The notes beneath the pieces are model-generated. The model made no database searches. It was given only the letters and a program-made list of their open reading frames with translations, and was not told where the DNA came from. 64,000 nt of DNA from Plectrocnemia conspersa (Eukaryota > Arthropoda > Insecta > Trichoptera > Polycentropodidae), in the NCBI GenBank assembly GCA_009617715.1, contig VTFK01000113.1:558001-622000 (forward strand), in the 5' to 3' direction. Made by a program: the position numbers and the translations under genes. Shown piece by piece: positions 17,465 through 50,152 of the stretch (position 1 is the first letter of the stretch; the number at the start of each line of letters is the position of its first letter).

Positions 17465-18285
17465 GGTATATTATTATTATTATTTATTTTATTAATTTAT
17501 TTAGCTTAATAGCTAATCTTTACATCTAACAAATTTAGTAAACATATATAAAAAATATATAAAAATACATAACAGAAAGAAAAAATAAAAATATACAATA
17601 ATAAAGACTTAATATTATAATTTATTTCTATATGTACGAAGGTGCTTTTTTTTTATTCCATTTATGAAACCCGTTATATTTTTGCTGTTTCGGATTTCTC
17701 TTGGAAGACTATTATATAAATCAAAACCTCCGTACATAACTCCCCTAGCCGTACTCGTTTTCTTATACTTAATTATCTTTAAATTTTCTCTATTTATAGT
17801 ATTATATTTATGTACATCTTTATTTCTTATTAAATACTTATTAAAATATTCTGGTAACATATTATTTTTTAACTTATATATAAATACTAAAACATTCATA
17901 CTCAATATTTCTTGAACATTCAACCATTCTAATCTATCAATCATAATTTTACAATGTGTTAATCTATTTTTATTTAAGACTACTCTCATTGCCCTATTTT
18001 GTAATTTTTTTGCAACATTTGTTTGTCTAATTTATTTAACATATTTAATAGTGTTGCACAATAATTAAAATGGGGCAATATTATACTATTGTAATTTTTT
18101 TTTTGTATTTATACTTAATATATTTCTTAATCTAGATAATAAACCTATTTTTCTACTAATTTTTTTTAATATGTAATTACAATGTTCTTTAAAATTTAAT
18201 TTTGTATCAACTCCTAAATATTTTATATTATCCACTATTTCTATATATAAGCCATAACGCTGCCTTAAAAAAATCACTTACACTT
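17465..18285 (-). mobile_element. Non-LTR retrotransposon (LINE), 3' fragment of the RT ORF
   Basis: Two adjacent minus-strand frames show the conserved C-terminal part of LINE ORF2 after the polymerase core. The upstream one (18086-18277) has VDNIKYLGVDTKLNFKEH and ISRKIGLLSRLRNILS, the KYLG...H...KI.K.IG.L motif following the RT palm. The downstream one (17615-17989) has the typical end, LNKNRLTH, LNVQEI..MN, LP.YF and YGGFDLYNSLPREIRNS. A frameshift or deletion separates them, so the copy is dead and 5'-truncated. The element's 3' side (17465-17510) is a TAA/TTA-rich tail. It is Jockey/CR1-like in wording; the exact clade is not settled. Confidence 0.8.
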
Positions 18286-22883: not shown

Positions 22884-23051
22884 ATGGGAGCGGCCGCGGC
22901 CGGCGCCGTCGGAGGCCCCGCGGCGCCCGGGGGCTCCGGCGCCCTGTGCCGCCTGTGCCTGTCGGCGCGCGGCGACACGCGCCCCATCTTCTCTCAAGCG
23001 TCCGCCGGGTCCCGCCTCAAGGAGAGGATCCTCGCTTGCGTCCACGTCCAG
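22884..23051 (+). CDS. ZAD gene exon 1: N-terminal half of the ZAD domain
   Basis: Encodes 56 residues: a Gly/Ala/Pro-rich leader, then ALCRLCLSARGDTRPIF and RLKERILACVHVQ, the first half of a ZAD (zinc-finger-associated) domain with zinc-binding Cys22 and Cys25. ZADs mediate homodimerisation of insect C2H2 transcription factors. The start is the first ATG in this frame with G at -3 and +4; the codons just upstream contain no other ATG. The exon ends CAG|GCGAGT, a GC-AG type donor, chosen because it is the only place that joins in phase 0 to exon 2 and restores the family order ...VHVQ-IDEDDGLP. A continuous GT donor in frame was not found. Neighbours: 3.6-kb intron, then exon 2. Confidence 0.85.
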
Positions 23052-26000
23052 GCGAGTCCATCTCCGCGAAGGTCGTATCGATCCGACGAGCAGCGTGACC
23101 TTCGCTCGTTTCGTAACCGCGCCGCGTCGCGCCGTACCGCACCGAACCGCACCGCTTTTATCGTCCCCGCCTTCGCAACGTCGCGTCGTCAGATTTCACG
23201 ATGACCTTCGTCCGTCTCGGGCGCGGCGGCGTTGCCGCTTCACGCCGAGCTCCGCAGGACTCCAACATGGCGCCTCGCGTGCGTTTTATGGCCAAAACTT
23301 CGAACGAGCGTCCATCTTGAGATCAGCTCCGCGTAATGGCTGACCCATTTTCGCATACGCATGTTCAACTATACCTTCATGCGCGTTGGATGAATGTATT
23401 GCGTGAGCTTGTATGTGCGCCACATTGCCGTTTTCTATCAATATGCGCCATTTTGAGTCTTTTTCATATTCTTTTAAATGAATGTACAGTTTTCAGGTTA
23501 GTTCAGTCAGGTTAGCGGTTCCTTATCTTTAAACGTTATAATAATCTCTTCTATGGTCATAAAATCTCCTTTCTGTGCCTTCTTTATCTACGGATGCAGG
23601 AAATTGGCATATGCACTTCGGCAACACATCGGTATCGCTTATGCCAAAAAACACATGTGAGCCGGTGCGTTATCGTGGAGCAAAATTCAATGCTGCTCCC
23701 CATCAACTCATGCTTATTGACCGTACGACCTGGTGGTAAGAATTCATAGTAAACTATACCACCATAATCATAGTAAACCTAGACATTAAATCGAACTCGA
23801 TATGCCTTTTTTGATCTTGGCTCTTCAGAGAGTTCACTACACGCCTGTGATTCGTCACTTGAGCAATTCTGGCTTAATTGCATTAATTTTTCCACATTTT
23901 CATATTTACTAGATGAACTCCTCCCGTTTCTTCATCTTTGACGTCTTTGCAGCTGTACAATTTTTAATCCATTCTTTTGGACATAGCATCCCTATAAAAA
24001 ACACCACTTCATTGCATTATTCCATTTATAACGCATAATTGAGTGCACATTCTTTGTTCCATCATTTTTAAAATAAAAATCATAAACCAAGAGCGTGCAA
24101 ATTACAAAAATTGTTATTTGTCATACTTCACCTTTCTCGTTGAATAAGTGCTCTGACTGAGCAGAAAGAAACTGATGCTATAACGTTAAAACCTATTAAT
24201 TCAGTCAATAATTTTATGTTTAATTTTGTTATTAATATCATGTATCATTTGGTAGATCTTGCTTTTAATTTCAAAAATCACTTTTTCATCGTTGCTCATA
24301 TATTACCTAGTTGCTCATAGCATCACCCCTGTCTACGAGCATGCTTTTGTTGCGGAGAGTAGATGTATATTTGTTGTAGTGTAGATTATGATTTTCCTCA
24401 TACTAATCCATTGTACACTTTTAAACAAATTTATTTTAAATGTATTTGATTGATATATAAACATAATATTAAGCATGACATTTATACATACCAGTCAAGT
24501 CAAAATTGCATGCTACAATCAAATACGAAAAAAACAAATAAAAAATGTCTCAAACGTAGTATTTACGTAAGATCCACAGCAGGATGTCTACAGTTTTAAG
24601 GTGTGAACGAGTCAATTGAAACGCTCAAATTCTTGCATGCTCTATATTCAAGAATAGCTACACCTCCATTTTCTACTTCTTACTTTATTCATTTTTATAA
24701 GTCAATCATTTCTCTATAACCTGAGTGCATAACTTAGGGGCCTAAGACTTCCAAGAAACAGACACTCATTCTGTATTCCGAATGAACGTACTACAAGAAT
24801 TTGTAGTTTCTTAATAGTGTTATTCTCACCAGATCAGAATGATGAATTATAATTATGATTTTCATATTCCTTAAATTATATGAATACACTTTTCAGCTTT
24901 GTTATGATGACGTTTCCATATAATGTTGATAGCTCCGTTCTCATATATTATGCATTATGATTCACTGAATAAAACTGATCCATCACAATATTTTTTAATT
25001 AAACACATTTAAAATGATCATTTTCAGTTCGTTCTGTATAAAGTTGTACGTACATTGATGGTTTTTGACTTATTTTAAGATAAAACTGATTTATAATTTT
25101 CAGATTAATATAAAAACCCATTTTCATTTTTTCAAATTACACATATTTTTGAAGATTTTTTAAAATTAAAACTCATTGGTGTAGCTTTTATCGAGAATTT
25201 TATATCAAACAAAAATATATTTGATTTTCAATTAAATTATTGTCCATCTGATGACCAATTCCATCTACTGGCTGACACATGTTCAATTATTTGTTTATGC
25301 AAGATTCAGTCAACACGTTGCATGTAAATTCATCCCATTGACTCATATAGACTGATGGCGTTTTGTGAATCAATGTGAACATTTAAATGGCTGACCCATT
25401 TTCGTAATTATCGAGTTATGTGTGTGTACAATTAAAATTTAGAGCTTTGTTTTGATGAAAGTATATTCAGGCCGTTTTCGTTACATATGCATTTTGATTG
25501 ATTCCATTCTCTGATTTATTATCATTTAAATTCCCAGGATATATTATAGGCATTTTTACTTGTTTTGTTTCTGTGGAGTGCTCTGTATAACAGTGCTATT
25601 AGTGTGAATATGACTCATTTACTGAGATTAATCAGTTATTTTTGTTTAGTATGTTCATTTATTCGCTGTATGAAGCTGGTGCTATTTTCTTACCCATTAT
25701 GTTGTACATACATTTTTATTTTTCCTTGTCAAGTATTATTACCTATATTCAGCGCTTGACTAGATTTAATTTAAATTTCATACGTATTGAATTGCTCTAT
25801 ATAGCAAACAACTCTGAACCGTATAGGAATATTGAGAAAACCTAGAAGCTTATTTTAACGAGTATGAGTATAATTGTATAAAAAATTGGTATATTTTAGA
25901 ATAATTGTTTTTATTTTATATTAAACTGAAGTAATATTCAAATCACATTTTTTTAAGGTACAGTTACACTATTATACAATTTTAACAGTGATATTTATAA

Positions 26001-26635
26001 TTAATGAGAATAAACAAAAATAATGATATTCTTTCTAGAACGAAATCATGTAATTCCAAGTCTTCAAAATACAGAATGACTTTTCATTACAAGAATGACT
26101 TGGTATATTTGAAAATATGACCCATTTGTCTATGAATACATCGTTTGAAATATATGTACTGCTCAATTGAAACAAAAATGTACTTTGTTGACTTGTATTC
26201 TCATACATCCATAACAAAAAATTGATCATTATGAATCACTACATTCATAAATCATGAAAAAACACTGCAGCAAGTCGAACCGTGCACATTTTTATAGAAA
26301 ACTTGGTCGACCTGCTTTGGGAAGTGGGAGGAAACGTGGCTGTAAAGTGGCACAAGGTCTTGAGGCGAACTAAACCGTTGTCAGCTACCTGATCTACAAC
26401 TTTTGGTAGCATCAGAACAGAAACTGGTACCCACCTGGTTCTGCATCTTTGCATTTTTATCATAAATAATATTCGGTCTTATCTAGTAGATGTATAGAAA
26501 CTTCATAATATTATGATGCATAGCACAAAATACACTTTGGTCTTGGTACTCATGAACGCTAGACGCTAGATAACCTTGTTGATCCCTTTCATTCAGCTTA
26601 GTCATCAATTGTAATGATGTATTTTTAATTTACAG
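23052..26635 (+). other. Intron 1 of the ZAD gene
   Basis: Starts CpG-rich (to about 23340), then AT-rich. It carries an exact 18-bp repeat, atggctgacccattttcg, at 23336-23353 and 25387-25404. No additional exon or known element recognised. It ends with the acceptor taatttacag at 26626-26635. Confidence 0.75.
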
Positions 26636-26782
26636 ATCGACGAGGATGACGGTCTGCCAGCGCAGATATGCAAAAAGTGCATCGGCAATGTCAACAATTG
26701 GCACGTATTTAAGAAGATTTGCGAAGAGTCGCAGGCCAAGCTGCGCGACTGGGCCAACGGCGATGTCACCGCCGATCAGCTG
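26636..26782 (+). CDS. ZAD gene exon 2: C-terminal half of the ZAD domain
   Basis: Adds 49 residues (57-105) and finishes the ZAD: IDEDDGLPAQICKKCI carries the second Cys pair (Cys68, Cys71), and NNWHVFKKICEESQAKLRDW forms the long C-terminal helix of the domain. Both splice sites are good (tttacag|atc and ctg|gtgagt) and the exon length is a multiple of three, so it is phase 0 at both ends. The domain ends around residue 98 and the rest leads into the acidic linker. With exon 1 it makes a complete four-cysteine ZAD shared by both predicted isoforms. Confidence 0.92.
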
Positions 26783-26860
26783 GTGAGTAATGCGAGAAAT
26801 ATGTGTGTGTTATGATGCGATTTACTTATTAATTTGAATTTTATTCAATTGCTATTTCAG

Positions 26861-26938
26861 GAGGTTAAGATTAAAAAAGAGCCTACTTCCGAAGAGGAGG
26901 ACTTTGCGATCGATGCTTCGTACCCCGGAGTCGAATCG
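26861..26938 (+). CDS. ZAD gene exon 3: acidic linker with SUMO-type motif
   Basis: Twenty-six residues (106-131), EVKIKKEPTSEEEDFAIDASYPGVES. The piece IKKE followed by P and acidic residues fits the SUMOylation consensus (hydrophobic-Lys-x-Glu), frequent in ZAD proteins. Flanked by consensus acceptor (gctatttcag) and donor (tcg|gtaata), phase 0 at both ends. Common to both isoforms. Confidence 0.88.
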
Positions 26939-27090
26939 GTAATAATATTTTATATTTTAAGAAAGACTTAGGTAATCATATAGTCGGGGTCAAGTTAAAT
27001 GTTTTCAGTCTATAGAAATCTACTTGATTAACTTATCAATGCTTTTTTTGTTCTTTTCGGCTATGGTTATATTGATTGTTAATATTTTAG

Positions 27091-27174
27091 ATCGAGGAGA
27101 ACGCTCGAGACAAACTACAACCCGAAGGACCTCCAATATTAGCGTCTTTGGGCCTCGCCCCCAGAAATGAGAAG
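27091..27174 (+). CDS. ZAD gene exon 4: linker, last shared exon
   Basis: Twenty-eight residues (132-159), starting IEENARDKLQPEGPPILASL and ending RNEK. Acceptor aatattttag at 27081-27090 and donor gaag|gtgaat at 27174/27175; phase 0 at both ends. This exon is the branch point: the same donor can join in frame to exon 5A at 27401 (226 bp downstream, piggyBac-derived) or exon 5B at 30285 (3.1 kb downstream, zinc fingers). Confidence 0.88.
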
Positions 27175-27400
27175 GTGAATATGATTATTTTATTCTTCAC
27201 ACTTTGGTTATTGTCCCTTTGTATCCATAACCTTCTATGGTACCAATATAGCTTGATAACACTTGAGCATTTACTTACCGTAACTATCGTTTACATCTAC
27301 ACTAACATTAGCGTTTGACGGTTCGATATGATGTTATTTAGAGATATGTATCAGTTGCTTTGATACACCAGCCGAGTGCGTTATTTTGTTTGGCCCACAG

Positions 27401-29113
27401 AGCAACACAGATCCGCGTGCCGATTGGGATCGGGTTGTTGCCATTCAGGCGCTCATTGACAGAGACGAGAGTGTGGAGGCGAGCGATGTCGAAGAGAATG
27501 ACGCCGTCGACGAGTCTGACGATAACAGCGACACCGACCAAGATTTAGTTTCCGTGCAGGACGATGACGACAACAGCGAACGATCCGAGTATAAATCTAA
27601 GGATGGCTACGTGAAATGGTCTAAGAAACCGATCGGAGATACGATTCCGGATTCTTTGAAAAGGAAGTTCATGTCCGGTTGCAACGGAGAGGCAGCTAAT
27701 GCGCAGACGCCGATTCAAGCCTGGTCGTGCCTAATCACAGATTCCATGATTAATACTATCGTTTATTATACCAACGAGTATATTGAGAAAAAATATCCAG
27801 CCATCACAGGCGATCAGCAAGAGAATGCTACTAATATAATCGAGATAAAAGCGTTGTTTGGTATTTTGTATCTGTTCGGAATAATGCGACCGGCTTTTTA
27901 TAATACGTCTGAGATGTGGTGGGCGGATGGGTGTGGCTTAGGAGTCGTACAGATGGCCATGAGCTTGGATCGTTTCAGATTTTTATTGAAGTGTTTGCGA
28001 TTCGATCAGCAGCAAGACGACGAAGAGTTAAATAAAGATAAATTACAACTTATAAGGAAAGTCTTAGATGATTTCACTAATAATTGTAAAGAATCATACA
28101 CTTTTGGGAGTTGTGGTGTGGTCGACGAAAAGTTTGAGCCGTTTGAGGGACCTTGTCCTTTTCGCAAGTCGTTAAAATCAGACACCGCTTCGAAGAACGG
28201 CATTAAAATGTATATGTTAGTTGAGTCGGATACGTTTTATGTAAGTAACGTCGAGATTTGCACGAATTATCATAAAATGGAGGAACACATTAAGAACTAT
28301 GCCAAAGCTGAGACTATCAAACGACTATTAGCTCATTTGAAAGGCAGCGGAATGACGATTGTAACAACGCCTTCCGTAACGACATTCAATCTAGCGAATA
28401 ATCTTAAGAAAGAATTAGGATTATATTGCGTTGGCGGTATATCGTCGAAATCTAAAGAAGTACCATTAAATTTTCATTCTGACAATAACAAAACTGGTAC
28501 TGCATTATTCGGATTCACCGAAACGATGGTTCTAGTTTCGTATATCCAGCCTAAGAGAAAGGCATGTATGGTTGTGTCGACTCGTCAAGATCACTTTAAC
28601 ACTCGAAAGATGCACAGGATCGGTTCAATCCCAGAGACTGTAATTTGGTATAAGCAGCGTAAAGGAGCACCTCGTGTGGCTTCGACTTTAGCGGCCGCTT
28701 ACACAACCGCCAAGAGATGCAACCGCTGGCCTTTAGCCATATTCTTCACTTTGTTGGATATTGCAGCTATAAACGCTCAAGTTATTTGGTTATCTAACCG
28801 TGCTCAAGGCGATGTTGTATTCAGAAGGAACTTCATAAGGAGCTTGGCTTTGGAGCTGATGAACGATCATATCAAAGCGAATAATGCAGCCGAAGAGAGG
28901 CCCTTGTTTGAGCTTGATCCATTGCTGGCCGTTAGAGGAGGACCTATTAAGAATGTCGTTTCTAGTGACGCATTGGCTAGAAGGCATAGAAGGTGTAAGT
29001 TGTGCGCTCGTACAGCCGATCGTAAGACTAGAGCGTACTGCTTATCGTGCAGTACGCCGGTATGCAAAGAACATTATAAGCCATTGTGCATTTGTTGTGC
29101 TTTGAAGTTTTAA
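27401..29113 (+). CDS. ZAD gene alternative terminal exon 5A: domesticated piggyBac transposase
   Basis: An intronless 570-codon exon with acceptor tttggcccacag at 27389-27400, phase 0. It has an acidic N-terminus (DVEENDAVDESDDNSD), then a piggyBac (DDE_Tnp_1_7) transposase: AWSCLITDSMINTIVYYTN, IKALFGILYLFGI, MSLDRFRFLLKCLRFD, VVDEKFEPFEGPCPFRK, NGIKMYMLVES, YIQPKRKACMVVSTRQD, NRWPLAIFF-LLDIAAINA. The C-terminal cysteine-rich domain is complete: CKLC-11-CLSC-4-C-EH-4-CICC (C5HC2-type as in piggyBac). Aligned by eye with insect piggyBac, the first catalytic Asp is kept (28124-28126), but the position of the second is Thr (28367, IVTTPSVTT) and of the third Arg (28673, KGAPRVAS). The ORF has no stop or frameshift despite this, which implies selection for a non-catalytic role. 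No own start Met suits the domain beginning, and no TIRs are seen. Product with exons 1-4: about 729 residues. Confidence 0.88.
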   Translation, partial: SNTDPRADWDRVVAIQALIDRDESVEASDVEENDAVDESDDNSDTDQDLVSVQDDDDNSERSEYKSKDGYVKWSKKPIGDTIPDSLKRKFMSGCNGEAANAQTPIQAWSCLITDSMINTIVYYTNEYIEKKYPAITGDQQENATNIIEIKALFGILYLFGIMRPAFYNTSEMWWADGCGLGVVQMAMSLDRFRFLLKCLRFDQQQDDEELNKDKLQLIRKVLDDFTNNCKESYTFGSCGVVDEKFEPFEGPCPFRKSLKSDTASKNGIKMYMLVESDTFYVSNVEICTNYHKMEEHIKNYAKAETIKRLLAHLKGSGMTIVTTPSVTTFNLANNLKKELGLYCVGGISSKSKEVPLNFHSDNNKTGTALFGFTETMVLVSYIQPKRKACMVVSTRQDHFNTRKMHRIGSIPETVIWYKQRKGAPRVASTLAAAYTTAKRCNRWPLAIFFTLLDIAAINAQVIWLSNRAQGDVVFRRNFIRSLALELMNDHIKANNAAEERPLFELDPLLAVRGGPIKNVVSSDALARRHRRCKLCARTADRKTRAYCLSCSTPVCKEHYKPLCICCALKF

Positions 29114-30284
29114 ATTTGTTTTTATGATACACTCAAATATTTTTGGTTTTGGTATTCTAAATTTTGTCACTGAATAGTCAGTCATAAATGATTTTTAATG
29201 TTCTATAAAGTAGCAGTCCAATACATATTATATAATGTTTTCAAGGTAAAGTAAAACAATTAACTGAAGATTGAGTGAATTATAGTTTTTTTTTGTATGA
29301 ATATTGTGATGTGAATATAATTTAGTTATTTGTTATGATTTAAAAAATATATTTCTCTTTTAAGTTAGTTTGAGTGTGTTAGTTAAATGTTATAATGTTT
29401 ACTTATATAATAATTTCCTCTTTTTTGTATTTTTTACATGAAATAAATTTGTATAACCATTTTGATCTATTTTATTTGATAATCTTGATTATATATTTTC
29501 CGCAGTAAGATATAATATAAATAAAAACTAACACTTGTTAGCATAGATACGTTTTATCTACATTACAATATAATATTTTCATTATAATTAGTGTACAAAC
29601 GAGTTTTAGTATTTTTTTTCACATATTGAGTTTCCATATTTTTTTCATTTCATGTAAACTTTTGGAGGCGGTTTCTAAACCTCTTAACCGGTAATAATGC
29701 CTAAAGGCGTAATTGTATTTCATACACAACGAGCATGATGTAAAAAGTGTTTTCAATAGGAGGGACGAATTTTGTCATACCTTATATCATTACAAGAGCC
29801 AGTGCGTGGCTGTACTGTGTTGAATTTTATAGTTATCTGCTCTGTTGTCTATTTTATGATGGACACATTTAACTTTTAAATTTTGAAGAACTTTTAAATT
29901 TGATAAATTTAACTGCTTGTTCAGTATCAACTATATTTAATTACATAATAATAAGTGACTGGCTATTTTGCAAGTTTCTTTTCTTTTCAAGTTTTCATTT
30001 AGCAGTGTTTGCAATTCATTGACTTATTTTTTTGGAGTCATTCAAATGGTTCAAGTGTTGTGAGCATCACACTCACCAAAAGTTGAATAAATCGATTATT
30101 GCTATTGATATTGCATTTCAAAACAATTTTAAACTGAACTAAACAATTTTAAAAAACTTAAAAATGTTTCCTGATTGAAAAAAAAACTAAATAAACCTCA
30201 TTTGTACACCATATAAAACGGTTCATTAGAAATGCTTGTTCATGTACAAAAAAGTAACTGTTTTTCTTTTAATTATTTTATTAG
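29114..30284 (+). other. 3' UTR of exon 5A, then intron before exon 5B
   Basis: AT-rich. An AATAAA lies at 29442-29447, about 330 bases after the exon 5A stop. The remainder behaves as intron for the zinc-finger isoform and ends in the acceptor aattattttattag at 30272-30284. No relic piggyBac TIR was recognised on either side of exon 5A. Confidence 0.7.
29442..29447 (+). promoter_or_regulatory. Poly(A) signal for the ZAD-piggyBac transcript
   Basis: AATAAA in AT-rich DNA between the two alternative terminal exons. Its position would let transcripts ending in exon 5A be cleaved before exon 5B. Confidence 0.5.
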
Positions 30285-33200
30285 GAGAGTGATGAAGAAA
30301 ACTATTACGGAAATGAGGCATCGCCAGCTGAGAAGGCGGCCGTCGGCAAAGAAAACGTGGGGCATCGTACCGTCGCCGTCGAGCAGTTGGCCTCAAAGGA
30401 CTGCTTGGTCTGCGGCCGAGCTTATCGCTATTCACACAACGCGCGTCGACACGAACGCGTCGCTCACGCCTACGACCGCTACACCAACACTATCGATCCT
30501 TCTACAGTTTGCATAAAGAATACCCCGTTCAAAACCAAAACCAATACTGAAAACGATATAATCAAAAACAACTACAGAAAGCCCTCTCAAGAGGGAGATT
30601 ATCTCACGAACTACAATCAAGCTGAGATTTTAAAATCTTTATTAACTGCTAAAATGGAGAATGAAACATCCGATTCCGATTCACGGTCCGATAGTTCTGA
30701 ATCTGTGGCTTCCGACGAACCTGATATTTCATCGTATCAAGTCGAAACGATTCTATCGGTTCCCAAGAATTATTCAGATGATTCGTCGGACGATGAGAAC
30801 GATCACGAAATGGGAATGAGAGGCGGCATCGGATCTGAAGTGGAAGTCAATATAAATTCAGAATTAGATATTAATAGAATAATCGGAATCGAAGAAGAAG
30901 ATGACGATGAACCAATAGACGGGCAGCAACCTGAACTAATCGAAGATGTACCTCCCATTGCTGATAATGTAGAAGTTGATAACATTTCTGAAATCGACAG
31001 ACCGACAGTTCCCGATTGCGATAGTAAATTGGAGAGCGAAGAAGAGAGTCAAGATGAGGACGACGATGACATGCAAATACCTTTAGTGCCCATTATCGAA
31101 ATAAATGAAAATCCATTGCGTCATGACTTAGACGAAAGCGGCGACGATGAGTCCGATAACGAATCTTGCGAACGGATCGAGACCTCCGTCGTCGATAGCC
31201 TTCACAATGAGTTGATCACCATTACGCCTGCACAAAAAGTGTTTATCGAGAAACACAGAGATTTAATTGAACAAATCAATACCATGAAGTGCAAATGCTG
31301 TGATAAAAACTTTCCCAGGCGGAAGGCCGTCATCCAGCATTTACAGAAGAACGGTCGTAAAATTCCAAAACACACTTGCTACACTTGCGTCATACCTTTC
31401 TCTCATATCGGCGCTCTCTTATCTCACATGCGATACAACTGCTGCAACGATACGTGGAAGTTGATATACAGAGAAGGCGGTATACCGGACAATATGGTCA
31501 TTGACGATAACGCCGATATGATCGATAACATTGACGAAAATTTAAAATCTCAGTATAAAGATATCTTAAATGCAAGAACGTACGTCTGTAAATTATGCTC
31601 GGCAAAGTATCGTCTGAAGCAGTTTATCATGAAACATATTTTTGACGCACATGAAAGTGCAGCTACTCAAGTGCAACCGCTGACATGTTTCCATTGCAAA
31701 TATAAGTTTATGGACAATAGGCTGTGGAAGAAACATTTGAGGAACGGAGAGTGTACGGTGTTGATTGATTGCGATATGTGCTCGGCGAAGTTTGAATCTA
31801 TGAAAGATTTCAATGATCACGCTATCGCCGATCACGCTGACGATTTTGTAAATCAAGAAAAAGAATTCCGTATCACAGATGGACGACCGACCAATTGTCC
31901 TATATGCGCTAAGAATCTATCTAATTACCATAATTTGGTGAAACATTTAAAAATGGTTCACAACGAAGAGAAACCTCACTTGTGCCAGTATTGTGACACC
32001 AGATTTGAACAGATCTCTGAATTAAATCACCATATTTATATCGATCACGATGATAAGTTTCCTAACGGTGACGATATGGAATACAACGATAAGGATGAAG
32101 TGACGGTTTATAATTATTCTTGCACCGAATGCGATGCAGTTTTTGAGTCAGTGGAATTGTGGACCGAGCATCAGATAAGCGTTCATCATCATGTCGCTTA
32201 CGAGTGTGATCGGTGTGAAAAGAAATTCTGGGATGAGATGGAGCTGGAGGAGCATAAAGCTGTTCATTTTAAAAATAAGATTTATAAATGCACTCATTGT
32301 TCGAATTCATTCAGCTCGTCCCAGAATCTCGCCGAGCATATGACACAGTATCATAGGTTATCTTCGGCGCCTGACAGGTCTTATGAGTCACAATTCTATT
32401 GCGAGATTTGCATTAGATCGTTTAAGAGTAGGCAAGCGTTTTCAAATCATATGCGGATCCATGCTAAGGTTCCGACTACTAATCGCCGAGCCGGAGAAAT
32501 AAAACGATCGATGTCTGATTCACCGCACCAGAACAAAGCGGTGCGTATTCAATCCCAGAACAATAAAGTCATCCGACACGTCGACCCCGCTCCATATTCA
32601 TGTGATATATGCGGGAAAGGATTTTTGCATAAGAAGAACATTTGGAAACACAAAAAGATGCTACATCCCGAAGTCGTGAATAAGACGAAAGAAGTTTCTA
32701 ATCTTAGAAACGTGTCCACAGAAGAAGAAGATTACACAAATGACGATCAACGCCTTTCCATTCCGCAATTTGATAGTTTTGCTGCTATGTACGATCAACC
32801 AGAGAATAGTGGATCCGAAGGTGCCTTGCTTTATCAGTGTGACCTGTGTGATAAACGGTTCGCTGTTAAGAGTAGCATTTGGAAGCATAAGCGAGTCAAA
32901 CATGGCGTGATGAATCCGCAGCAAGACCTGCCCATAAAGACGGAGATAAAGACTGAACCGGTCAAAGAGAAGGAAAATGCTCGTTTAATACCCTTACCTA
33001 CCAGCTGCACCATATGTAAGATAGTTTTCAACGATAAGAGAGCGTATTATCGTCATAGGAAAATGATGCACAGCAATAGAAACCAATCAAACTCATCGTC
33101 AGATCATTTGGAGAATCAAGTTAAAGATACAGTAATACTTAATGGCAAATCGCAGAAAAAACTATCGGCGCACAGAATGCAGAATTCAAGCGATGAAGAT

Positions 33201-34313
33201 GACGTACCTCACCATCAGAACCATCGCAGAGAAGTCAAATATCCATGTGATACTTGCGGAAAAAATTTCCACGAAGCCGTAACTTTACAGAATCACACAT
33301 GCCTTCAGCGCACTCCTATCGCTGAAACATACGAATGCGAAATCTGCAATAAGAGTTATACGTCAATATCGGCGTTGAAGAGTCACAGGGGCTGGCATCT
33401 CCGATCGCCGGATGGAAGAGCGGCGTTCAGCAATTCTGGCTTATGGATGCCTCAGAATAAAGTTACTAATAAAGTCAGCAAACATGAGGTAATTGAGTCG
33501 TTGCGATTAAAAGCGCCGGCACAAAAAGAAATATCACCATTGCATATTAAGAGGAAGCTGCCTCCGGATGTGCAGGTCACACTGCTGAAGAAGAGAAAAG
33601 ATAACGAAGATGTATCGATAACACCAGTTCAGAGTGTGATATCTCAAGTTGATCCTATTGTACGTCAATTAGCTATTAAAGAAGAGCGATATTGTGAGCC
33701 CTGCGCTAAGACGTTTACGAAGAAGGCTGCTTATCAGCGGCACATTGAAGAAGTGCATAAGCATAGCAACGTAGTATGCCCCATATGTAAGAAGAGCTTT
33801 ACTAGAAAATCGACTCTTCTCGTTCACATGAGGAAGCACGATACTGGCAATATATCGGAACCGCCGGACATGGACGAGAGCGACGATGACGATGATATGG
33901 ATGAAGATATTCCCGATATTAAACCACCGATTTATAGATGCGAGATTTGTAATATGCAGCATACTTCATCTAAATCGTTGAGACGGCATAGATTGAAGTA
34001 CCACGGTGGAAGCGTACAGAGACCGCAAGCTCCTAGAAGCGACGACAGGACTATTAAACAAGGCGTTGTCAAGGAATATAAATGTGGATTATGCGAAGAT
34101 GAATTCGATACTGAGATGCAAGTCTTGAGTCATTCTCATTATCAGTGCACATTTTGCGGATTATACTTCTCGCAGAATCAGAACTTGATGGCGCATACGA
34201 AGACACGCCACTCCGACAAGAGCCACACGATAATTCCGTGCAACAAGTGCAATCGTCTCTACATGAACAAGAAGAGTCTACAAAAACACATAGAACTGGT
34301 CCACAGTAGTTAA
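30285..34313 (+). CDS. ZAD gene alternative terminal exon 5B: C2H2 zinc-finger array
   Basis: A single 1342-codon exon, phase 0 with exon 4, opening ESDEENYYGNEASPAEKAAV. It has one C2H2 finger near isoform residue 199 (CLVCGRAYRYSHNARRHERVAH), a long acidic Ser/Asp/Glu-rich region (about 260-460), then about 21 more C2H2 or C2HC fingers from about residue 493 to the end. Typical fingers are CDICGKGFLHKKNIWKHKKMLH and CPICKKSFTRKSTLLVHMRKH; some are degenerate (for example CKCCDKNF with irregular His spacing, or a final Cys in place of His). Spacers carry IKTEIKTEP, two SUMO consensus sites. With exons 1-4 the product is about 1501 residues: a ZAD multi-finger nuclear DNA-binding protein, probably a transcription or chromatin regulator. 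I do not recognise a specific orthologue. The start at 30357 of the open frame is not used; the frame simply continues upstream to the acceptor. Confidence 0.92.
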   Translation, partial: ESDEENYYGNEASPAEKAAVGKENVGHRTVAVEQLASKDCLVCGRAYRYSHNARRHERVAHAYDRYTNTIDPSTVCIKNTPFKTKTNTENDIIKNNYRKPSQEGDYLTNYNQAEILKSLLTAKMENETSDSDSRSDSSESVASDEPDISSYQVETILSVPKNYSDDSSDDENDHEMGMRGGIGSEVEVNINSELDINRIIGIEEEDDDEPIDGQQPELIEDVPPIADNVEVDNISEIDRPTVPDCDSKLESEEESQDEDDDDMQIPLVPIIEINENPLRHDLDESGDDESDNESCERIETSVVDSLHNELITITPAQKVFIEKHRDLIEQINTMKCKCCDKNFPRRKAVIQHLQKNGRKIPKHTCYTCVIPFSHIGALLSHMRYNCCNDTWKLIYREGGIPDNMVIDDNADMIDNIDENLKSQYKDILNARTYVCKLCSAKYRLKQFIMKHIFDAHESAATQVQPLTCFHCKYKFMDNRLWKKHLRNGECTVLIDCDMCSAKFESMKDFNDHAIADHADDFVNQEKEFRITDGRPTNCPICAKNLSNYHNLVKHLKMVHNEEKPHLCQYCDTRFEQISELNHHIYIDHDDKFPNGDDMEYNDKDEVTVYNYSCTECDAVFESVELWTEHQISVHHHVAYECDRCEKKFWDEMELEEHKAVHFKNKIYKCTHCSNSFSSSQNLAEHMTQYHRLSSAPDRSYESQFYCEICIRSFKSRQAFSNHMRIHAKVPTTNRRAGEIKRSMSDSPHQNKAVRIQSQNNKVIRHVDPAPYSCDICGKGFLHKKNIWKHKKMLHPEVVNKTKEVSNLRNVSTEEEDYTNDDQRLSIPQFDSFAAMYDQPENSGSEGALLYQCDLCDKRFAVKSSIWKHKRVKHGVMNPQQDLPIKTEIKTEPVKEKENARLIPLPTSCTICKIVFNDKRAYYRHRKMMHSNRNQSNSSSDHLENQVKDTVILNGKSQKKLSAHRMQNSSDEDDVPHHQNHRREVKYPCDTCGKNFHEAVTLQNHTCLQRTPIAETYECEICNKSYTSISALKSHRGWHLRSPDGRAAFSNSGLWMPQNKVTNKVSKHEVIESLRLKAPAQKEISPLHIKRKLPPDVQVTLLKKRKDNEDVSITPVQSVISQVDPIVRQLAIKEERYCEPCAKTFTKKAAYQRHIEEVHKHSNVVCPICKKSFTRKSTLLVHMRKHDTGNISEPPDMDESDDDDDMDEDIPDIKPPIYRCEICNMQHTSSKSLRRHRLKYHGGSVQRPQAPRSDDRTIKQGVVKEYKCGLCEDEFDTEMQVLSHSHYQCTFCGLYFSQNQNLMAHTKTRHSDKSHTIIPCNKCNRLYMNKKSLQKHIELVHSS

Positions 34314-42627: not shown

Positions 42628-44504
42628 CTGAAAAGTAATAAGTGAGCGATTAGCAATCGATAGAGATTTGGAAGATCTATACTCTAGTTGTTCTAAGAAT
42701 GTATTATTATATCATCGGTGAAAGTGAATTGTTTTAGTTCATGTTGCTCATCTGGAAATTTTGTTATGCCTAAATGACGCAAATCTTTGTTTCTCGTTAA
42801 CGCACAGTAGGCGCACGACTTGTTTTCAAAGAATGGCTCGCTAAAGACTGTAAACAGTCTCATATAATGTGTTAAACAAAAAAAAAGATAAGTACGGATA
42901 TCTAAACAAATCAAAAAAACTATAATTGAGATGATAAATTCATATAATATTATGTATTTAAAACATCATATCATAAAAATTTTATAGTGGATACATCACT
43001 CACTAATATTTAGAGACACGTATTTTGATCAAATTTATGATTAATGCTAAATATATTCTACAATTTATAATGGATGCTAAAATTCGCGTTTTTTTCACAA
43101 AAATTAGAAAAAAATAGATGCTCAAAATACATGCCTTTTTTATGTACATACTGTACATCAATTTTTCATCTTTTTGTTACAATGATTAAATAAATACATT
43201 ATTTTTGAGCGCTGATGTATTTTTTTAGTTTTGTTTTTATTCTGATAGTCATATTTTCTTTCATGAATTAAAAATATATTTTTAATAATATTTAATATGA
43301 CTATGTGTAAAAAACATTATACAAAATTGTCATTAGTTATTTCTAAAATGTTGATTTCGATAGCAATAGAAAATGTATCATGTCACAAATTAATTACCAG
43401 CACGATAGACGAGTGGTGTAAGTCAGTGACTATTACCTGTAAGACCTGGGCTCGAATTTCACATGGATCATAGTGTTTTTAAATTTCAAATGTGTCTGGG
43501 AGATTGAAATAATTAATTATTAATAATCATAAATCCAAATAGTTTTTCCTAGATTTTCCTAATCTAACAATAAGTGATTAATAAGTAAAATAAAATAGAA
43601 CTAGGTCGTTTATGGTGAGTAGATGTCTCACTATTTACTTAGTAGTTAATTGTAATTTACCTCGTTATAATTCATGTTGCAATGAAAGATTTAATATAAA
43701 TAGAACCTGTTATTTTAATTATCACAGTAATATCTTAAGTTAAAATATAAATTATTTCTATCGAAATCTACTGAATATATCTAATATACAACGATTCTGT
43801 TTACACGAGTTTTAGTCAGATTTTAATCTAACTTTTCTAAGGAATCGATCTTGAAAAAACTGAAAGTAGATAGTTTAAAAACGTTTTTAACTTAAAATAA
43901 AAATATGATAAAAAAATAATAATATATAAAATAGGCTCACATTTATTAACCAGAATAATTGAAATATATCTTATTCTTGCGGTCAGTTTTATGATTTTTT
44001 AATCACAGCAACTTTATTATAGTGAAAACTAAGATATAAAAAATTGATTAGAATAAAAAAAAATATTCTTGCCAGAAAAAATACTAATGATCATTTTGAA
44101 ATTAGTAGAAATTAGTAGACATGTATTTTTATGTAGCGATTTCATGCTAAAAATTGTTCTTCTTCAATTAAAAAAAATCATAATTATAAGTTCAAAACCT
44201 AGCTTTAAACAACGAATATAACATTATATTTGAGTATTTAGTCAAAGCTATAGCGTTAGAAAACGACGAACTTTGCAGAAAATTGTTCGATTCTTTAGTT
44301 ATATTTTTTTACGTCTGAGATTAAGAAAGTAATTCTTAGAGTTTTGGATAACTTCTGGCTATCCATTATTTCATTATTGAACGAAAATATTTTGCTAAAG
44401 GAAGTCTGAATCTTGGCATCATTTTTTTCATTGAACTTTGCCAAGTGTATTAGGCGTTGAATGGCAATCTATTTTAGTATTGATTAAATTAGTGATAAAT
44501 GTAC
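42628..44504 (-). other. Tob intron between coding exons, with a SINE insertion
   Basis: AT-rich intron of 1.88 kb; donor AACAG|GTACAT and acceptor cttttcag on the minus strand. It contains a plus-oriented SINE copy at 43397-43690. Confidence 0.8.
43397..43690 (+). mobile_element. tRNA-derived SINE, copy A
   Basis: Head with a Pol III A-box-like tagacgagtgg (43406-43416) and B-box-like gggctcgaatttc (43448-43460), then acatggatcatagtg-ttttaaattt and a body ending ctatttacttagtagttaattgtaattta. Similar in order to copy B at 52728-53068 and, less closely, copy C at 61966-62162. Confidence 0.7.
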
Positions 44505-45175
44505 CTGTTAGCACGTTTGCTGGTGGTTTTCAATTTGGTGCTGCCGAACTTGGTCTGTGCGAACGTTGCCGTAGTGAAGGTGAGCGGTTGCGTGGCTCTC
44601 GGCAGGAACGGCGGCGGAGCTGGTCCTGGAGATCCTCGGAAGGCCAGCGCCACTGGCGGCGCCGGCGGAGGAACGGGAGCCGGAGAACCTCCCAAAGACG
44701 CCGAAGCTCTAGGGGACAGACTTAGAGCTCCCAGTCCACCGCTGACCGCCTCTATGGGACGGAAGCATTGCGCTTCCGGGTTGAAGGTTCTCGTCACTTC
44801 ACGATCCGCGCACCTGTCCTCCTGCTGTTCCTCGCTGAACAACACCTTCACCACACCCTTTTCACCTATTCTGTAGCTGACCTCTCCCGGATCGACCCAC
44901 ACGGCCAACTCTGGCGGAAGATTCTCCAGGACGTCTCTGACCGGAACGCCTGACTCTTTGGAGGCCCGCTGCAGCACGGAGTCCAAAGGCTCTCCCGTCT
45001 TGAGGCATCGAAATGCGGACCCCTTGAACGGGGTCTCCGGGTACCAGTGACCTCGGAACTTGTCCTTGAGTGCTTTCTCTAGTTCCTCGCCAAAGATGTT
45101 CACTCGGCGTCTGGGGAGCTTATTGTACAGGTACGATATTACGAAGTTGAGCGCCACTTGTACTTCGATATGCAT
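44505..45175 (-). CDS. Tob: Tob (BTG/Tob family), first coding exon
   Basis: Tob is an antiproliferative adaptor: its N-terminal APRO/BTG domain binds the Caf1 (CNOT7/8) deadenylase and its PAM2 motifs bind poly(A)-binding protein, linking mRNA deadenylation to growth control. The exon starts MHIEVQVALNFVISYLYNKL (ATG at 45175) with PRRRVNIFGEELE, Box A (HWYPETPFKGSAFRC), Box B (NLPPELAVWVDPGEVSYRIGEKG) and the first PAM2 motif (FNPEAQCFRPI). A Pro/Ala-rich region precedes RATQPLTFTTATFAQTKFGSTK, a block highly conserved in Tob1/Tob2 but not BTG1-4. The donor AACAG|GTACAT at 44505/44504 splits an Arg codon shared with 42627. The start context is supported by the exact family N-terminus. Confidence 0.95.
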
Positions 45176-45244
45176 TTTGTTTAACTTCTAGCTTATATTA
45201 TGGTAATGGTTTGAACTCAGTTTCACGGGCGGCGTGGATTGAAC
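45176..45244 (-). other. Tob 5' UTR, start of the exon carrying the ATG
   Basis: On the minus strand gtttgtccacag (45256-45245) is a strong acceptor 69 bases before the Tob ATG, implying an upstream non-coding first exon and a 5' intron. Possible first exon: 51489-51700. Confidence 0.55.
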
Positions 45245-49080: not shown

Positions 49081-50152
49081 ATGGAGAATTTTATAAACGT
49101 AGAGCTATGGGCTCACTACTGTCATAGACCGTACCCAATCTTTTTATGGATGAAATCGAAGCGCTGGAAACAGCCAAGTCCGAAGATTTGGTTGCGATAC
49201 GTAGATGACGTGTTTGTAACACGGAAGGGAGAATATACATAACATTTACTATAGAACTAGAAAAAGAAAAATCTATCCCTTTCTTAGATATACACTTAAC
49301 ACTCAGATAAGTTATTAGGAAAATCACTCATACTAATATAAATCTATCATCACCCTGCACAACTGAGATCGGTGACTGCATCGCTTTTTGACAGAGCAGA
49401 AAAACTGTCAGATGCAGAAAATATAACTCAAGAGTTCAGAATTGTTGATAAAGTCCTCGAGGGTAATGCATACAAAAAAATAGAAAGTAAAACTATGAAA
49501 AAATGGATACATATAACTACATTGGACATGCACGCATTTCGTATGTAAGGGGAGTTTCGGAAAAATTGGAAGGGAAGAGAAAAAATCAGAACCATTTTGC
49601 ATTCAAGTGGAAAATTTGCTCCTGCCGAATAGAAAAGACTCAATTAAAAATGACTCCCAAGGCATTTATGAAATATTCTGTGCAGATTATAATAAATCAT
49701 ATATACGACAAACAAATCGAATGGCACAAAGAGCTTCCGAACAAAAAAGCGGTAAAAATAGGCGATGCGAATTTGGCACTGCGTTTAATGATGACCACAT
49801 AATCAACTTCTCTTCCATCAAGACTTTGGCCAAGATAAAAAATCTTTTTGTTCGGACTAAACGGGAAGCGGTTGAGTATACATCAACAAAGCATCTTCCT
49901 TGAACAAAAGAGACGACGGAAAAATGATTGCAATTCTGACCAGGGAGAAACCGGTAAACAAAAAACACAAATTAACAATATTTCCAAAACTATTATACCA
50001 ATATAATTGATAAAAATAATAAATTAAAAATAGTGATAATTCAAAAAAGGTGGCAACACCTGTACGCCCCAACATGACCAGGTCGAGGACGAGAGCGGCA
50101 GTTAGTCTCCGAGGATGAAGAGTGACGGGCTCTTCGAAGCGTCAGACGCTCA
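49081..50152 (+). mobile_element. Penelope-like retroelement (PLE) remnant
   Basis: From 49081 the sequence reads MENFINVELWAHYC...IWLRYVDDVFVTRKGEYT, the end of a PLE reverse transcriptase with the YVDD active-site motif. The linker continues with ASLFDRAEKLSDAENI-QEF and later KGIYEI-like wording: GIYEIFCADYNKSYIRQTNRMAQRA (in a 98-codon frame from 49607), the PLE GIY-YIG endonuclease with the second YIG altered to YIR. The end is DHIINFSSIKTLAKIKNLFVRTKREAVEY. Several frameshifts and stops show it is dead. A hammerhead-like hairpin at 50105-50147 marks its 3' side. The order RT, linker, GIY-YIG, ribozyme-like motif is diagnostic for PLEs. Confidence 0.85.
50105..50147 (+). ncRNA. Hammerhead-ribozyme-like motif of the PLE
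   Basis: Stem I GTCT (50105-50108) with AGAC (50144-50147); core CCGAGGATGA; a perfect hairpin GAAGAG (50117-50122) with CTCTTC (50130-50135); then GAAG and GC-GTC before the expected cleavage point. PLE terminal repeats are known to carry minimal type I hammerheads (CTGATGA...GAAA...GTC). Here the core is altered, so activity is doubtful. Confidence 0.5.

Follow-up and report, generated by a model that had tools for sequence, protein, structure and literature searches.

Two predicted alternative last exons, one piggyBac-derived and one of zinc fingers, in a ZAD gene of the caddisfly Plectrocnemia conspersa

A single gene in the caddisfly Plectrocnemia conspersa carries two predicted alternative terminal exons behind one ZAD domain: the nearer, exon 5A, derives from a piggyBac transposase, while the farther, exon 5B, encodes an array of C2H2 zinc fingers. 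The gene lies in a stretch of 64,000 nucleotides (contig VTFK01000113.1, positions 558,001 to 622,000; hereafter the window), and our analysis confirms the observation of its two endings. Comparison with other insects makes it very probable that exon 5A goes back to one piggyBac capture, made before Trichoptera and Lepidoptera separated and kept since as an alternative 3'-terminal exon. This suggests that for about 300 million years insects have retained a DNA-binding protein with a choice of two endings. Being ancient and, in this lineage, without some of its catalytic residues, exon 5A is better called a domesticated DNA-binding module than a fresh capture. The original prediction had interpreted the locus as a host-transposase fusion produced beside a zinc-finger isoform; that interpretation is supported, and a junction shared with Lepidoptera strengthens it.

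Results

One ZAD gene with two predicted endings

Four phase-0 exons encoding a ZAD and an acidic linker, followed by a donor shared by exons 5A and 5B, had been predicted, and exon lengths, splice signals and translation bear out this anatomy and its coordinates (Table 1). The lengths of all six exons (1-4, 5A and 5B) are multiples of three, with splice signals at each; intron 1 starts with a GC donor (GCGAGT) and the remaining introns are GT-AG. The donor at 27174/27175 joins either last exon in frame, across 226 bp to the near exon versus 3.1 kb to the far one. Joining and translating the exons in silico reproduces both expected products, of 729 amino acids (ZAD-piggyBac) and 1501 amino acids (ZAD-fingers).

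In the 729-residue product, ZAD (PF07776) matches residues 21-93 (E 1.1e-17, profile positions 1-73 of 75) and includes the four cysteines (CRLC, CKKC) of a ZAD-ZNF N terminus. The piggyBac core, DDE_Tnp_1_7 (PF13843), matches residues 262-618 at E 1e-58, or exon 5A by itself at E 6.2e-59, and the exon closes with a cysteine-rich domain (CRD) of the CxxC-CxxC-CxxH-CxxC type found in the piggyBac superfamily. An AlphaFold model of exon 5A, of moderate confidence (mean pLDDT 68), has the fold of the Trichoplusia ni (T. ni) transposase 6x67 (Foldseek E 6e-27), which the exon also matches by sequence (E 8e-50). For exon 5B the 1342 codons stand, but not the 'about 22' fingers: the array characteristic of a ZAD-ZNF finger isoform is present (PF00096), with 18 strict C2H2 fingers by pattern, or 21 when a final C is allowed.

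Exon 5A has what an alternative 3' exon needs, namely an in-frame acceptor, its own stop and a poly(A) signal, the first AATAAA lying 329 bases 3' of the stop. Its first in-frame ATG is codon 91, and there is none in the open frame 5' of the acceptor. Among our protein matches are two caddisfly-type sequences, P0001 and P0002, taken as trichopteran on the strength of about 61% identity to exon 5A; their first ATG codons are 115 and 140. Conservation of the N-terminal part nevertheless begins right at the acceptor, well before the ATG at codon 91, so the protein would need a start from elsewhere.

Two boundaries deserve comment. The sequence of seven aligned related proteins is uninterrupted at the place where exon 1 ends. 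At this boundary (23051/23052, CAG/GCGAGT) a protein model from Eumeta japonica, P0006, seems to read through with Val next, fitting a GT donor there. The open frame just 5' of the exon 5A acceptor (27362-27400) reads DTPAECVILFGPQ, where P0001 has VTPADCVVFFGPQ and P0002 ends in YFGPQ; this intron end seems conserved and is perhaps a splicing element.

Table 1. Exons, signals and motifs of the ZAD gene (window positions)
Feature	Position	Strand	Details
Exon 1: start codon, then the first ZAD half (CRLC)	22884..23051	+	GC donor GCGAGT; from translation and a PF07776 match in the joined product
Exon 2: remaining ZAD half (CKKC)	26636..26782	+	From translation, Pfam and protein alignment
Exon 3: acidic linker	26861..26938	+	From translation and protein alignment
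Exon 4: linker, terminal residues QPEGPPILASLGLAPRNEK	27091..27174	+	One donor serving both alternative last exons
Intron 4, short form, 226 bp	27175..27400	+	Acceptor TTGGCCCACAG
Exon 5A: piggyBac transposase-derived alternative terminal exon, 570 codons, own stop, no early ATG	27401..29113	+	
DPRADW motif at start of exon 5A	27410..27427	+	Specific to ZAD-linked piggyBacs
C-terminal CRD, CxxC-CxxC-CxxH-CxxC	28982..29110	+	piggyBac end-binding zinc domain; motif as defined in PMC8086355
First AATAAA past the 5A stop	29442..29447	+	Further AATAAA at 29520, 30086 and 30190
Exon 5B: alternative terminal exon of 1342 codons with the C2H2 zinc-finger array	30285..34313	+	

The junction is shared with lepidopteran gene models

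The original prediction had proposed checking this intron in related genomes for piggyBac, and at the level of protein models this proved positive in five Lepidoptera. The protein searches were word-limited, with about 8000 candidates scored in each, so absences from them are weak. A 696-residue model from Brenthis ino (P0003) consists of ZAD and piggyBac, aligns with 97% of the fusion query at 36% identity and ends with a complete CRD. The Eumeta japonica model matched by the fusion query (P0006) has a ZAD, a cut piggyBac and then the finger exon. Three longer models (2056-2102 amino acids), from Spodoptera frugiperda (P0026), Colias eurytheme (P0035) and Pieris brassicae (P0048), run from ZAD through piggyBac into the corresponding finger exon; they exit the piggyBac exon at differing points, P0026 and P0048 without the CRD.

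In all five models piggyBac is joined at the same codon as in the window, after ...TPRSDK and three residues before Asp-Pro. Across 58 related proteins the end of exon 4 leads to piggyBac in 5 and to a non-piggyBac continuation, the finger exon, in 33, the pattern not showing the end in the other 20; in the models, therefore, one and the same exon-4 end precedes either kind of exon. The nearest match of the finger isoform is an Arctopsyche grandis protein, also from a caddisfly (54% identity over 99%), and next, among species-named matches, to Lepidoptera at about 39-44%.

A probable single origin

We built a tree of 35 rows, comprising 3 caddisfly-type and 4 lepidopteran ZAD-linked exons, 24 further piggyBacs from the window's own genome and 4 from elsewhere, 4 rows having been dropped beforehand. 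All ZAD-linked exons fall into a single clade supported at 100/100, and a tree of 12 rows groups them with the same support. Directly after the junction, DPRxDW occurs in 8/8 ZAD-linked rows and 0/31 other piggyBacs, and a six-frame search of 117 own-genome loci found this motif at the window's own locus only. Crown caddisflies are about 295 million years old in one dating study (PMC11285404); if the capture predates the split between Trichoptera and Lepidoptera, it is on that dating at least about as old.

An old insertion in a piggyBac-rich genome

The genome (392.9 Mb, 959 contigs) lists at least 121 matches to PF13843. Searching it with exon 5A, with 76 of 251 candidates scored, gave 69 other matches; the best-scoring of these reached 31-32% identity over about 550 residues, and the highest identity among the matches listed was 38%, in a piece of about 147 residues. 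By tblastn against 116 other own-genome loci (some overlapping, three of them flanks), exon 5A showed at most 35% identity in matches of 100 residues or more. TTAA is absent from 27175-27500 and present downstream (e.g. at 29195), and none of the 10 inverted-repeat pairs in 27175-30284 brackets exon 5A, which lacks the TTAA-flanked terminal inverted repeats of an active transposon. A recent insertion is ruled out by these distant best matches and the lack of bracketing terminal repeats.

Within the same genome, L010 and L011 are near-identical piggyBac copies, on branches of 0.005 and 0.02, that keep all four acids, which suggests that piggyBac has been active here recently. The loci nearest to exon 5A (31-32%), L014 and L022, have open piggyBac frames of 568 and 546 amino acids with acids D-D-G and D-N-E, and are possible further domesticated piggyBacs; no ZAD match was found in their flanks of about 10 kb (one side only for L022). 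More broadly, tblastn of seven ZADs against 31 stretches (28 piggyBac loci and three flanks, only 2 of the 28 loci being covered beyond about 1.5 kb, and one of these on one side) gave nothing below E 0.049, the window itself serving as positive control at E 1.3e-23.

Selection and the fate of the active site

When exon 5A was allowed to drift neutrally to 61.5% identity in simulation, 0 of 500 runs stayed free of stops (mean 12.1, lowest 3), which rules out a chance open frame. Protein models, tree, shared junction and this simulation together point to conservation across species under purifying selection. We assigned segment borders within the exon ourselves, guided by the structure paper PMC7351741. 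Identity among the caddisfly-type rows is 84-93% in the CRD, 65-77% in the helical dimerisation and DNA-binding parts, 54-61% in the acidic N terminus, 50-57% in the insertion and 45-47% in the first catalytic segment, the CRD being more conserved than the latter (Fisher p 3e-7 and 2e-5).

The catalytic columns D268/D346/D447 (T. ni numbering; PMC7351741) are occupied by D-T-R in the window, which therefore lacks the triad of an active piggyBac, and by D-P-N and D-R-A in the other caddisfly-type rows. Among other piggyBacs 22/31 have D-D-D. All four lepidopteran rows covering the columns (P0003, P0026, P0035 and P0048) read D-D-E, keeping D268, D346 and D450 with E for D447. As judged from these rows, caddisflies keep the DNA-binding parts while the active site drifts, and Lepidoptera keep the acid triad in altered form. 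The caddisfly ZAD-piggyBac isoform is probably a DNA-binding, non-catalytic protein.

Discussion

Several observations weigh against an ancient shared capture whose DNA-binding function was kept. The fusion searches returned no ZAD-piggyBac from the lgn set and no piggyBac isoform from Arctopsyche grandis, both weak absences; ZAD-finger proteins of the lgn set read straight across exon junctions as transcripts would (e.g. P0013, on a 5649-base contig), and P0001 and P0002 appear to continue into the intron, the pattern expected of unspliced DNA or precursor. In Lepidoptera the fusions come from automatic gene prediction, and three of the models run piggyBac and the fingers together as a single chain. 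Between the two orders the piggyBac exons share 33-35% identity, barely more than is seen for other piggyBacs (29-31%), a low value tempered by the finger isoform, which likewise reaches only about 40-44% between orders. In the caddisfly-type rows neither the CRD linker (69-76%) nor the second catalytic segment (53-67%) is poorly conserved. In the one lepidopteran pair compared, Brenthis and Colias, the CRD (63% over 35 columns) is kept no better than the catalytic segments (69-70%), so that binding retained with catalysis relaxed is limited to caddisflies. Finally, a full D-D-D is also missing from 9 of 27 other frames of this genome, so domestication cannot be deduced from lost acids by themselves.

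Nested genes are common, and exon 5A might instead belong to an independent domesticated piggyBac gene within the intron, driven by a promoter of its own, starting in a small exon farther upstream and remaining separate from the ZAD. We consider this unlikely. In its favour, the splice from exon 4 to exon 5A is a prediction from sequence and conservation, and matches from the lgn set include no spliced ZAD-piggyBac; yet the three caddisfly-type frames have no start codon before codons 91, 115 and 140, a lack that disfavours an independent start, the exon meets exon 4 in phase 0 a mere 226 bp away, and predictors in five lepidopterans chose the same codon for the join. Two independent captures into the same intron, one in each order, seem less likely still. 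The low identity between the two sets and their differing catalytic residues would fit such a history, whereas a join at an identical codon and phase behind a common exon-4 end, the DPRxDW start in every ZAD-linked row and in no other, and a single clade at 100/100 against 28 other piggyBacs speak for one event.

We give little credence to the piggyBac exon being an internal part of one long ZAD-piggyBac-zinc-finger protein, the form in which P0026, P0035 and P0048 are modelled. Such long models would be the expected output of a predictor allowed one transcript per locus; an internal exon is disfavoured by their differing exits, with the CRD lost entirely from two of them, and by the CRD, whose conservation extends to the close of the frame in the window, P0001 and P0002 and which is complete at the end of the Brenthis model. 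That exon 5A is a functionless remnant of a dead transposon, with in-frame splice signals by chance, is barely credible even in a genome so rich in piggyBac, given that three caddisfly-type sequences, about 61% identical, have all kept open frames, which no neutral run did, and that no ZAD match below the E value above lies near the 28 other piggyBac loci. One ancient capture, kept as an alternative last exon, remains our preferred reading.

This kind of capture is already known from CSB-PGBD3 (ERCC6-PGBD3) of primates, and the analogy drawn in the original prediction holds: as in that case, the intronic piggyBac would serve as an in-frame alternative 3'-terminal exon while the host protein is still made from downstream exons. 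To our knowledge, PGBD3 is the only PGBD protein known as an alternative-exon fusion. As described in PMC2268245, piggyBac elements are natural exon traps, carrying a splice acceptor and poly(A) signals, CSB-PGBD3 is at least 43 million years old, and the catalytic positions of PGBD3 are D270, N352 and D467, with the second D replaced as in the window. The present case departs from it in the host domain (a ZAD rather than the CSB N terminus), the age, the spread over two insect orders rather than primates only, and the membership of both alternative products in DNA-binding families; in addition, two of the three catalytic acids are gone. The transcript and protein of CSB-PGBD3 have been demonstrated, whereas ZAD-piggyBac is predicted from sequence.

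The host gene resembles Drosophila hangover and other insect ZAD-ZNF genes in having a ZAD, a linker and a C2H2 array. Beyond Trichoptera and Lepidoptera, the proteins from named species that best match the finger isoform are fly hangover proteins, through local ZAD and finger similarity; identity is about 19-22% over the fingers and 37-39% over the ZAD (P0066, P0073), and the matched records list no transposase domain. The ZAD zinc-finger gene is probably a hangover homologue. Exon 5A shares with the T. ni transposase (PDB 6x67) the core fold, the CRD pattern and an acidic N terminus, but lacks an early start codon of its own, TTAA in 27175-27500 and bracketing repeats, and has D346 and D447 replaced. 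Like the domesticated PGBD1-5 and ciliate PiggyMac, it would be a piggyBac protein kept by its host; PiggyMac-like partners without an intact acid triad are described in PMC8086355, whose main text does not contain the word ZAD. Neither ZAD nor zf-AD occurs in the main text of a screen of eukaryotic proteins for joins of transposon and multicopy domains (PMC12062965). By title or opening of abstract, the open-access literature, taken without subscription papers and preprints, yielded no published ZAD-piggyBac fusion.

We propose the following model. A piggyBac element would have inserted in an intron of a ZAD zinc-finger gene in the common ancestor of caddisflies and Lepidoptera; preceded by an acceptor and followed by a stop and poly(A) signals of its own, the transposase frame could have become an alternative 3'-terminal exon. 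Exons 1-4 would then be spliced to the finger exon, giving the original factor, or to the piggyBac exon, giving ZAD-piggyBac, and we infer from sequence and conservation that both isoforms are spliced in vivo. The piggyBac half would retain the dimerisation and DNA-binding fold and the cysteine-rich end-binding domain, the caddisfly lineage having lost two of the three catalytic aspartates, and ZAD-piggyBac would act as a DNA-binding module that delivers its ZAD to a recognition sequence of the piggyBac type. In piggyBac ends, CRD dimers attach to a palindrome (PMC7351741), and ZADs can drive dimerisation (PMC9810180), through which ZAD-piggyBac might pair with itself or with the finger isoform. 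The choice of splice would set which DNA the protein reads, the near exon giving a transposase-type binder and the far exon the fingers; homodimers could read two kinds of site, and mixed dimers could link both. We likewise infer the DNA target, the dimer partners, including the ZAD heterodimer, and the regulatory outcome. Cleavage by the lepidopteran form is conceivable, since the acids are D-D-E in the four rows covering them and conservation in the catalytic segments equals that of the remaining sequence. In its fullest form, which we hold to be speculative and rather improbable, one ZAD gene would for about 300 million years have made two factors sharing a dimerisation domain and reading DNA by fingers or by transposase, the lepidopteran fusion perhaps still binding metal and cutting DNA as a ZAD-tethered host nuclease, and the caddisfly form being a pure binder.

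If expressed, this would be the oldest host-transposase fusion made through an alternative last exon, several times older than CSB-PGBD3, and the first in the ZAD-ZNF class; we know of no older one, and of none in that class. ZAD-ZNF proteins are the most abundant class of insect transcription factors (PMC7655104). One capture would have met different fates, its catalytic residues drifting in one order and conserved in altered form in the other. Moths kept in the laboratory make it testable whether fusions of this kind first served to repress the transposon they came from, whether genes close to old transposon ends are under their control and whether one isoform pairs with the other.

A search of a phage collection with bases 1-25000 of the window gave no match, as expected for insect DNA. 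Elsewhere in the window, two stretches, 17615-18031 (-) and 49517-49903 (+), look retroelement-like by eye (a reverse transcriptase tail and a GIY-YIG-like stretch), with no Pfam match at E 0.01. A gene of the BTG/Tob family lies at 44489-45187 (-) (PF07742, 2.6e-38).

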